Shown: piece by piece, positions 17,806 through 22,241 of the stretch | Layout: each line of letters begins with the position of its first letter | Position numbering within the stretch: the first letter of the stretch is position 1 | Source of the DNA: Onthophagus taurus | Taxonomy: Eukaryota > Arthropoda > Insecta > Coleoptera > Scarabaeidae | DNA length: 64,000 nucleotides | NCBI RefSeq assembly: GCF_036711975.1 | Contig: NC_091973.1 | Span: 2,542,001-2,606,000 of the forward strand | Direction: 5' to 3' | Made by a program: the position numbers and the translations under genes | The notes under the pieces: model-generated | Databases searched by the model: none | What the model was told of the DNA's origin: nothing | What the model saw: the letters and a program-made list of their open reading frames with translations, nothing else

Positions 17806-20800
17806 TTAAAATGGCGGGCTTGATTCGTCACAACTTGACTCTTGACTCGATGGCGGCGTATCCAATTGCGGCAACCCCAAATCCAAATATTCCTCATTCG
17901 CCGTTATCGTTAATATATCATCTAAATCTTCCACCAAATCCGAAAACAGCGGCCTCTCATTTGTTTTATAACTCCAACATTCACGCATTAACATGTAAAT
18001 TTCTAGGGAACAACACGGAGGTTTTTCCATTCTATGACCATTCCTTAATAATTGGAATAACTTTTCTACACTCGGTACAGATGGATATGGTGTACCTCCC
18101 AGTGTCATAATTTCCCATAATAATATTCCATAAGACCAAACGTCTGATTGTGTGGTGTAAACTCTATGGAACAAAGCTTCTGGTGCCATCCATTTAACAG
18201 GTAATCTTCCATCCGTAGTTTTTCTGTAATAATCGCTGCAATGTATGTCTCTGGCTAATCCAAAATCGGCGATTTTAAGAATGTAATCTTCGCTAACCAA
18301 CACATTTCTAGCAGCCAAATCGCGATGGATACACTAAAACAAATCAAAAAATTAGAACAAAAACAAACAATTTACCAAAAACTAACCCTCCGCGAAGCTA
18401 AATACTCCATCCCTTTCGCAACTTGATAAGCAAAAGAAACTAAATCCTTCTGAGTTAGAGTTTTCTTTTCCTTTTCTGGCATTCCAATTGCTGGTTCATA
18501 CCCAGATGACGGTCTATGTTGACGAAGAAAATCCCTTAAATTTCCATAAGGCGCATATTCCACCACAACATACAACGGCCCATTTTGAGTACAACATCCC
18601 AAGAGGTTTATAATATTAATGTGTTTTCCAATCATTTTCATCATTTCCATCTCTGAGACTAAATCCATCATTTCGTTATCTGTATGACCCTCTATGAAAA
18701 AAAAATTAATTTGTAATACTATTTATTATTTGTTATTAATGTGATGTACCTTTTAACATTTTTACCGCAACAATGCTGCTCACTCCAGCTTTAACGACAT
18801 CAATAGCTTCAGCTTTCATGACTTTCCCGAAAGCTCCCTCCCCAAGACTTTTACCTAGATGTAAACTTTCCCTGGGAATTTCCCAATCCGAATCCATCGG
18901 GAGTTCATATTCCGATATCATTCCATCAACAGCGTTGTTGTTTTGAGTTTTTTGTTTCTCAATTTTTACAATCGGCATTAGTAAAGGTTCGGAAACATTT
19001 TCTGAATGATTTTTCTCTATTATCACTTTTTTCGTCCATTGAGTTACTACTGCCGCTCTTGCGGTTTCTATAGCAACTAATTTTTTAATTTTTTCTCTAT
19101 TTTATAAAAAAAAAAGAATTTATATTAGTATTATTAAAATAGATATATGCAGTAAAATCTTGATATAATGGACCTTGTTAAATCTTGTTGTTGAAAAAAC
19201 AATTATTAACATTTACTTACTGTTTCCATTTAGTGATGACATAAATAACAATTACTAACGCTCCTGTGAATAAAATCGAAACAACAATTCCCATTATAAT
19301 GATTAATAAGGGTTGTCCATGAGTTTCTGAATCTAATGCTAAACAAAATTTATTATTAATTTTTTATAAATGTTTAATTAATCATACTTACAATCAACGA
19401 TTTTTAAATAAGCACTTCCTGTTGTATGACCAAGAGTATTAGCAGCATAACAAGTGTACCATCCCTCGTGGTCATAGGTGACGTTAACCAGTTTAAGAAT
19501 TTCAGGAGATGTTTCATCGTTCTATTATAAAAACGAAATTGTTAATAAATGACTACACTGTATTAATTAATTATCGTACCCGACGTCATCATTGCAAGTA
19601 TGCAACCAACATCACAATACTCGTATTGAAATACGCAAATCGAGTTATTGGTTGCATACTCACAATGATGACGTCGGGCACGATTAAAAAAATACAAAGT
19701 TGTGATACCTGAGTAATAACCGTTCCCTCATTATCATCGTGAATTGTATTATTACTGAAGACCCAGTAAATTTTAGGGTTTAAATCGGAGAGGATTTTAC
19801 ACGTTAGATTAACACTGTCACCGACTGCCACCGTGGTGTTTTTGGGATTCTCTATCATGATCGGACGGTTATGGTAACGCTCTAAAAAGTGGACGTGCAA
19901 AGGAACAGATTTGAAAAAATAGTTAGGACACTAAATGTTGAATAACCAACACCAACGTTAATAGCTACAAAAGAACCTTCACCACGAAACCAAAGAACAA
20001 TATAAAACCTTCACCGTCAAATTTCTTTTTTTTTTTTCGTAAAAAATACCTTTAGTAGAAATTTGTCGTCATAAATAGTTTCGTTTTCGTTAGTCCGAGG
20101 AAGTCCACGAAACCACTGAATGAATGGTAACAAATCGGAAAATTGCGGACATTCCAACTCAACTGTAGAGTTAACTACAGCTGTTACGTTTTTCGGGTAG
20201 CCAGTAACGATGTATGGTTTTGCCGGGAACCGTTCTATGTAGTGGTTCCGAAAAAATTATAACACGCAAATACGGAAACTAATTTCATTCACTTACCAAC
20301 AACTGTCAACGTGTAGGTGTAGTTAATGCATCCCACCTCGTTGCAGGCCTCGCACATGTATTTCCCGGCATCCGTAATTATCAAATCTTGCATCTGCATG
20401 TTCCATGTGGTGTACTTGATCTCACCCAAGCTTCGTACCGGTGGCGTTTCACCATTCTTGTACCATGTTATATTAGGAACGGGATAACCTCCAGCTTTAC
20501 ATTTAAAAGTTACCATATTCCCCGCAACTTTTACGTTAAGCCCATTTTCGGTCATTTTTTTTGTAAAATAAGGTATATGGGGTGTTTTCTTCCCCGATGG
20601 GGTGTAATCTTCTTCGTCGTCATCTTGAGTTCCTTGATCTAAAATGTTTTAATTAATATCTATTAATAAAATGACGAAGTCTTACGTACCAATACTAAAA
20701 TTTTTTTGAATACATTGCCCATCTAAACAAACTTTACAACTGTAATTTCCATAATCTTCGATCGTCATTATTTTTACATTGATAGAAAACTTTTTTTGTT

Positions 20801-22241
20801 TAACAGATGATTCGATGGAATCGTTTTTGTTATTGTACCAAGTAATTGTGGTCGAGTTCATTTCGTTAACATCGCAGTTTAAGGTGAGGTTAGTACCCAA
20901 AGATACTTGGATGATTTGCTCGGCCTTATTGTTCAAAAAATTTAATTTTGGTTTATACTCATTCGGATCTTCTGCCACCAATGAAAGGCTTTTTAAACGA
21001 AATAGATTGTTTGGGATAAAATCCAAATTTTTTGGGTCGTTGATAACATTTGAAAGAGTATTAGCAATTGATTCGTAATCATCGACTACTTTTAAGTAAG
21101 CGCTTTTTATTGCACGACCAACTGAATTAGTAGCATAACATGTGTACCACCCCTCTTGGTCATGGGTGACGTTAACCAATCTAAGAATTCCAAGAGATGT
21201 TTCGTCGGTCTATTACAGAAATGAAATCGTTAATAAATTAATAAAATGATGATAACTATTATATACCTCATTTTCATTATTATTAACACTGTTATTATTG
21301 TACACCCAGGAAATGTTATGGTTTAAGTCGGATATGACTTTACACGTTAGATTAACACCGTCACCAACTGCCACCGTGGTGTTGCTAGGATTCTCTATTA
21401 TGTACGGAGGGCCTAAAAAGACATGGACGTGCAAAGGAACAGATTTGAAAATAAGTTGGGATAATAAATGTTGAAAAACCAACACCAACGTTAATCGCTA
21501 CAAAAACCTTCACCATCAAATTTCCTTTTCTAATACGAAATACCTGCGGCAGAAATTTGTTGGCATAAATAGTTTCGTTAGTCCGAGGAAGTCCACGAAA
21601 CCAATGAATGAATGGTAACGAATCGGATAATTGCGGACATTCCAACTCAACTGTAGAGTTAACTACAGCTGATACATTTTTCGGGTAGCCAGAAACGATG
21701 TTTGGTTTTGCCGGGAACCGTTCTATGTAGTGGTTCCGAAAAACTTGTAACACGCCAATACGGAAACTAACTTCATTCACTTACCAACAACTGTCAACGC
21801 AAAGGTGTGATTAATGCATCCTAGATCGTTGCAGACTACACACGTATAATTCCCAGTATCTCGATACACCGCATCTTCCATCACCATAAACCATTTGGTG
21901 AATCTAACCCTCTCTAAATTTCGAACCGGTATTTCATCATTTTTATACCACGCTACATCAGGAACCGGATAACCTTCAGCTTTACATTTCAATCGTACCA
22001 TATCACCCTCAACATACACGCGAATTTTCGACATTTTCTTTGGAAAATATGGCAAAAAATGTTCCGATTCAACTTTGCGCTCATCTAAATTTGAATAAAA
22101 TTCAAGTATATGTAACCCTATTAAAAATTTATTCTTACCAATCTCGGAAGACGCATCATCCATTAAATTGTCATTTGAAAAATTCGAAGCTGACGTGTGA
22201 AAAAGAAGAATAGACACTAAGAATGTTATTCTGAGAGCCAT
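17806..22241 (-). CDS. FGFR: Fibroblast growth factor receptor tyrosine kinase
   Basis: Thirteen minus-strand coding exons: 22241-22139 (signal peptide [18 protein letters not shown]), 22084-21785, 21722-21544 or 21412-21267, 21209-20690, 20638-20297, 20234-20050 or 19881-19709, 19521-19392, 19338-19221 (membrane helix), 19096-18750, 18691-18387 and 18333-17806. Using one exon of each alternative pair gives about 1018 residues. The ectodomain has five Ig-type domains: D2-like, D3-like, a linker Ig, then a second D2/D3 pair. The kinase has [30 protein letters not shown], the DYYRKTT activation loop and WMAPEAL, all intact and typical of FGFR. FGFRs bind FGF at D2-D3 and signal through Ras/MAPK; in flies they guide trachea and mesoderm. 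An acceptor (TTTTTTAG) at about 22267 just before the ATG implies an upstream 5' UTR exon. Five Ig domains recall Drosophila Breathless. Confidence 0.95.
19554..19700. mobile_element. Hairpin MITE, copy 6, inside an FGFR intron
   Basis: Starts TACACTGTATTAATTAATTA, with TCGTACCCGACGTCATCATT, then the GCAAGTATGCAACCAACATC arm and the inverted TTGGTTGCATACTCACAATG arm. It fills most of the 187-bp intron between FGFR exons 19709 and 19521. The homologous intron of the other cassette (21210-21266) lacks it. Confidence 0.8.
19709..20234 (-). other. FGFR alternative exon pair 2 (7/8), first half of second Ig III
   Basis: Exon 20234-20050 ([10 protein letters not shown].., ELECPQ, IQWFRG) and exon 19881-19709 ([10 protein letters not shown].., NLTCK, IYWVFS) repeat the arrangement of the first pair, with the same phases (1 in, 0 out). 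They share the downstream exon 19521-19392, which supplies the F-strand Cys (WYTCYA). Confidence 0.85.
21267..21722 (-). other. FGFR alternative exon pair 1 (3/4), first half of Ig III
   Basis: Exon 21722-21544 ([10 protein letters not shown].., ELECPQ, IHWFRG) and exon 21412-21267 (GPPYIIENP.., NLTCK, ISWVYN) each encode the B-strand Cys and core Trp half of the same Ig domain. Both acceptors accept phase 1 from the preceding exon and both donors leave phase 0. Including both, or neither, breaks the frame. Confidence 0.85.

Follow-up and report, generated by a model that had tools for sequence, protein, structure and literature searches.

Ig III is the domain by which FGF receptors select their ligands, and it has acquired different splice switches in different animal lineages. 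The window analysed here, a stretch of 64,000 nucleotides of Onthophagus taurus contig NC_091973.1, contains a complete-looking FGF receptor gene on its minus strand, with its start codon at 22241 and its stop codon at ~17805 (exons past C2 were bordered by eye; Table 1). Between a D2 exon and the sole second-half exon for D3 (Ig III) of its first cassette lie two homologous exons, A1 and B1, for the first half of that domain. The locus therefore raises the question of whether the two exons are alternatives to one another and, if so, how the choice might be made and what it would change in the receptor. The exons and their phases, the early stops that follow from either wrong combination, a second cassette downstream and a tract of low divergence between the cassettes lead us to conclude that A1 and B1 are probably a mutually exclusive pair of the exon IIIa type and that the D2–A–B–C block to which they belong was duplicated within the gene, giving two switches.

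Table 1. Exons and other features of the predicted FGF receptor gene (positions are those of the window)
Feature	Position	Strand	Description
E1	22139..22241	-	Holds the start codon and what by eye resembles a signal peptide; leaves in phase 1
D2_1	21785..22084	-	First D2 Ig domain; phase 1 in, phase 1 out; aligns to FGFR1 D2
A1	21544..21722	-	Cassette 1 exon for the first half of D3, first of two versions; 179 nt; phase 1 in, phase 0 out
B1	21267..21412	-	Cassette 1 exon for the first half of D3, second of two versions; 146 nt; without the Glu-Arg linker residues
C1	20690..21209	-	Second half of D3 and a further Ig domain in a single exon; entry phase 0
D2_2	20297..20638	-	Acidic stretch and second D2 Ig domain
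A2	20050..20234	-	Cassette 2 counterpart of A1
B2	19709..19881	-	Cassette 2 counterpart of B1; Glu-Arg linker residues kept
C2	19392..19521	-	Second half of D3, cassette 2
Exons for the transmembrane segment and the split tyrosine kinase, ending with the stop codon	17805..19338	-	Borders by eye
Low-divergence tract between cassettes	21424..21798	-	Covers the D2_1 end, the D2_1–A1 intron, A1 and the greater part of the A1–B1 intron; gene conversion inferred

A probable pair of alternative exons in the first half of Ig III

The initial annotation had read A1 and B1 as a mutually exclusive pair coding for the N-terminal half of D3, with exclusivity enforced by the reading frame. Exon borders, phases and early stops support the exclusive pair. 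All of the junction ends that had been named proved exact, with GT donors or AG acceptors at 21785, 21722, 21544, 21412, 21267 and 21209. Both exons have entry phase 1, exit phase 0, a length of 2 mod 3 and an open frame (59 whole codons in A1 and 48 in B1). An open frame of such length arose by chance in ~3–4% of base-shuffled copies of either exon, and the protein matches given below are far stronger than chance would yield. Both also code for a Cys and a Trp set in an Ig-like context (VELEC...FIHWF in A1 and NLTC...NISWV in B1). As had been claimed, using both exons or neither shifts the frame: counted from the predicted start codon, joint inclusion of A1 and B1 leads to a stop at residue 199 and omission of both to a stop at residue 144, while inclusion of A1 or B1 singly leaves the reading frame open through C1. 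The expectation that the two exons are not joined in frame through other splice sites held within a narrow scan, in which none of four products was open; these combined the own donor of A1, the sole one found with the donor patterns used (weaker donors fall outside these patterns), with four YAG acceptors. The description of the exclusivity as frame-enforced stands in part: the wrong products would indeed be useless, but the choice made by the spliceosome is left unexplained, and other in-frame splices exist, namely D2_1 to A2, A1 or B1 to C2, and E1 to D2_2. The frame thus accounts for the uselessness of mistakes and not for the manner of the choice.

The A1/B1 pair holds up and belongs to a type already known from insects. 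In the available portion of their paper, Burguera et al. (2017; PMC5703972) report an insect-specific mutually exclusive event at Fgfr exon IIIa, known from the honey bee and the red flour beetle (for the latter with reference to Sharma et al., 2015, whose title speaks of a single fgf receptor gene and two isoforms), and describe the Ig III splicing events of Fgfr as having evolved independently in several lineages. Just as in the insect exon IIIa pair, two alternative first-half Ig III exons stand here ahead of one constitutive second-half exon, and the frame makes double inclusion or skipping nonproductive. The present case differs in that the pair occurs twice, in two tandem D2–D3 cassettes of one gene, a doubling not mentioned in the available portion of PMC5703972. 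It had been proposed that swapping the first half would be an independent solution to the problem that vertebrates solve by swapping the second; the independent evolution is in print, but the solution is not new, the insect exon IIIa having been published (PMC5703972).

That vertebrates swap the second half of D3 agrees with what is available of PMC5703972 and PMC10284700. The IIIb/IIIc exons of vertebrate FGFR1–3 resemble the A/B pair in being mutually exclusive exons for half of Ig III, with ligand binding expected to change, whereas the part exchanged here is the first half together with the D2–D3 linker. Second-half alternatives of the vertebrate type were not met in this gene, each cassette having one second-half exon (C1 and C2). 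Mutually exclusive exons for Ig-domain halves are likewise described for the arthropod Dscam arrays in the accessible text of PMC3236188 and PMC4244043, but these arrays comprise dozens of exons, in contrast to the two per cassette found here. What looks new at this locus is that the cassette is doubled, that a conversion tract is likely and that B1 has lost the linker arginine; the available parts of the open-licence literature on duplicated or converted exons and domains name no duplicated D2–D3 cassette in an insect FGFR.

How the choice between A and B might be made

Steric exclusion was set aside as the cause of exclusivity, because the A–B introns, at 131 and 168 nt, give no indication of it on their own. 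Competing RNA structure was set aside as well, with three intron duplexes in cassette 1 ranking 88, 116 and 29 of 200 shuffles and the fold of the A1–B1 intron itself ranking 22 of 200, none of which gives clear support. In cassette 2, the duplex between introns 1 and 3 beat all 200 shuffles, but the intron holds the strong hairpin of a repeated element.

These intron lengths, and the lack of a significant duplex among the cassette 1 introns, are points in favour of a different explanation, according to which A and B are spliced loosely and exclusivity arises only by quality control, with double inclusion or skipping removed by nonsense-mediated decay. Such an explanation would also fit the early stops in both wrong combinations, which lie well upstream of later junctions. 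We nevertheless consider it somewhat unlikely. The published insect case is described as mutually exclusive (PMC5703972, available portion), and the A and B donors are alike in a weak-looking +5 position, as expected of regulated exons: G occupies donor position +5 in 0 of the 4 A/B donors compared to 7 of the remaining 8 donors in the predicted gene (Fisher p = 0.01, the four A/B donors representing two independent events by descent). In the reading that we prefer, regulated splicing would use exactly one of A or B per cassette, and the products of wrong A/B combinations would be lost to nonsense-mediated decay.

As a separate observation, the A1–B1 intron (21543–21413) is open throughout in the frame of A1, with the first stop lying within B1, and its retention would yield a truncated receptor.

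A second cassette and a tract of probable gene conversion

The D2–A–B–C order repeats at 20638–19392 as D2_2, A2, B2 and C2, with phases identical to those of cassette 1. Its frame logic is alike, since A2 and B2 together lead to a stop at residue 219 and neither of them to a stop at residue 151 (with E1 joined straight to D2_2). A1 and A2 share 50 of 60 residues and B1 and B2 share 28 of 49, as against 14–22 of 49–55 in comparisons of A with B. Because A and B thus sort by type across the cassettes, the A/B pair probably existed before the cassette was duplicated, which accords with its having been reported from other insects. Conversion blurs the comparison of the A exons, so that this argument on age rests on B.

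Divergence between the cassettes differs from exon to exon, with dS values of 0.83 for D2, 0.075 for A, 0.31 for B and 0.40 for C, and the D2–A intron is identical between them at 58 of 62 sites. Within the low-divergence tract, 22 of the 247 intron and third-codon sites differ, compared to 83 of 255 outside it, and none of 1000 permutations reached this contrast. Recent duplication alone, without conversion, was set aside given the synonymous divergence of D2 relative to that of exon A, and the simplest reading of the data suggests later gene conversion across the tract. Since the tract spans exon A together with the short upstream intron and most of the downstream one, splicing signals located there would be common to both cassettes, and through such shared signals the A/B choices of the two cassettes may be coordinated. 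Of the two switches, that of cassette 2 would adjoin the membrane and that of cassette 1 would be distal.

Length differences between the cassettes are multiples of three in exons A (6 nt) and B (12 and 15 nt), whereas the A–B introns align with gaps of 5, 34, 1 and 3. Both length differences in B align at exon edges, which makes shifted splice sites an alternative explanation for them. For A1 and A2, dN/dS is 1.03, a value obtained from 13 differences only.

The B2–C2 intron carries a near-perfect hairpin of 108 bases (19575–19682) that is absent from the cassette 1 intron, and the minimum free energy of the whole intron is −83.1 kcal/mol, compared to a shuffle mean of −36.4. A genome search with the hairpin element gave at least 80 matches over both strands (40 of 1056 candidates scored), and the matches listed include copies at 88–94% identity, in the better orientation, on several contigs. 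Given this distribution, the hairpin looks like a short mobile element with inverted repeats that has inserted into the cassette 2 intron.

FGFR identity and what the swap would change

Human FGFR1 is the best PDB match both for cassette 1 with A1 (whole-chain score 127.1 bits, E = 5.8e-36) and for cassette 2 with A2 (124.5 bits, E = 3.4e-35). It scores 120.2 bits (E = 8e-34) for cassette 2 with B2, where titin and Dscam rank higher by whole-chain score, and 108.1 bits (E = 3.9e-30) for cassette 1 with B1, where titin, Dscam and some other multi-Ig chains do so. The titin and Dscam whole-chain scores sum several Ig stretches, and the best single stretch is far weaker than the FGFR1 score. The idea that the B forms are less FGFR-like than the A forms was discarded because their ranking below titin and Dscam reflects this summing, only B1 being clearly lower. 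In the swapped half, human FGFR1 is matched at 24 of 58 positions by B2, 22 of 60 by A2, 17 of 60 by A1 and 15 of 49 by B1, counts that go against simply taking A as the ancestral form.

The swapped part begins with Glu249-Arg250 of the linker (residue numbers count from Arg250 as given in PMC10284700) and takes in the Cys and Trp that lie in the first half of D3. According to the available text of PMC10284700, Arg250 is a crucial ligand-binding residue in human FGFR1, and the D2–D3 linker and first D3 strands are placed in the receptor–receptor contact. Because the swap replaces this linker and these strands, and with them Arg250 and part of the receptor contact, it should by analogy alter ligand binding or dimerisation. 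The Glu-Arg pair is present in A1, A2 and B2 but lost from B1, and we propose on this basis that FGF binding by the distal module in its B form may be altered, weak or absent. Cassette 2 would present the Glu-Arg pair in either form. An insect switch that is present twice, with one copy minus a key ligand contact, would offer a natural way of testing whether ligand choice depends on the first half of D3 as it does on the second half in vertebrates. Such a gene would also make it possible to test how one FGF receptor gene fills the roles that are split in Drosophila between Heartless and Breathless.

A predicted five-Ig receptor from what looks like a sole FGFR gene

In its full-length form the gene is predicted to encode the layout D2–D3–Ig–acidic stretch–D2–D3–membrane–kinase with five Ig domains, which follows from the two D2–D3 cassettes, the extra Ig domain in C1 and the acidic start of D2_2 (DDDEEDY, ahead of its D2 domain). 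An acidic stretch, a transmembrane segment and a split tyrosine kinase thus occur in one gene (the last two read by eye, and the kinase compared within its own genome only). The extra Ig domain has a Pfam match, its PDB matches being weak and of a generic Ig kind. Within C1, this poorly matched domain (the 20690–21085 portion) is joined to the second half of D3, and no GT donor is present at the position where C2 ends.

Searches of the beetle's own genome gave four matches to the A query, the strong ones being only A1 and A2, and 13 to the B2 query, the strong ones being B2 and B1 (the latter at E = 9.2e-15). The D2 query gave 24, led by its two copies here and followed by others at E = 4e-8 or weaker. 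The kinase query gave 28 matches (127 of 193 candidates scored), three of which, at 96–99% identity, are exons of this gene. Beyond these, the highest identities were 57%, for a match labelled C7, and 55%, for a match labelled C1 (distinct from exon C1) that was judged by eye only; further listed matches include longer ones at 39–45% identity. C7 was rejected as a second FGFR since it scores best with RET in the PDB, FGFR1 being close behind, where RET comes after one EGFR-labelled chain without any stretch that passes alone. Among the kinase candidates scored, this gene therefore looks like the sole FGFR gene in the genome.

The absence of a second FGFR gene from these candidates and the in-frame junction of E1 to D2_2 would both suit a model in which the whole of cassette 1 is an optional unit, so that an E1–D2_2 splice gives a Heartless-like receptor with an acidic box and two Ig domains, and retention of the cassette a Breathless-like receptor with five. 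The predicted layouts match those given in the available part of PMC3634451 for Drosophila Breathless (Btl), with five Ig domains, and Heartless (Htl), with an acidic region and two Ig domains beside the membrane. The likeness is one of layout. Btl and Htl are two genes, and the fly orthologs are intronless (PMC5703972, available portion), whereas the beetle has one exon-bearing gene that could make both layouts. In-frame skipping, moreover, follows simply from the phase 1 common to these exon borders, and an optional cassette 1 is compatible with the A/B choice and does not exclude it. We regard this model as unlikely to be the explanation of the locus.

The preferred reading, of an exclusive A/B pair in each cassette, can be extended into a conjecture that combines these elements and that we hold to be doubtful as a whole. 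The receptor would comprise two serial D2–D3 modules with their own switches, which may take the same setting (A in both or B in both) given that gene conversion keeps exon A and the surrounding introns nearly alike in both cassettes; the distal B form, without an equivalent of Arg250, would be a ligand-blind spacer, and skipping of cassette 1 would give the Heartless-like two-Ig form. Were this true, a single gene would cover the work of two Drosophila receptors.

Is B1 a functional exon?

The loss from B1 of the Glu-Arg linker residues and of five codons near its end, together with its Asn-rich composition, could alternatively mark it as a leftover, only A1 having been used in cassette 1 since the cassette duplication, with B1 drifting to decay and B2 the real alternative. 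Compatible with this, dN/dS between B1 and B2 (0.80, bootstrap 0.32–2.57) is indistinguishable from 1, and in a neutral simulation of B the frame stayed open in 40% of runs, so that an open frame alone says little. We nonetheless find a leftover exon very improbable. B1 retains both splice sites intact, with the right phases and an open frame, and cassette 1 with B1 keeps a full Pfam I-set match that spans the domain end to end (profile positions 1–90 of 90, residues 137–224). In addition, both of its length changes are multiples of three, and the fraction of neutral runs with an open frame falls to ~4% once both changes must also be in frame by chance.
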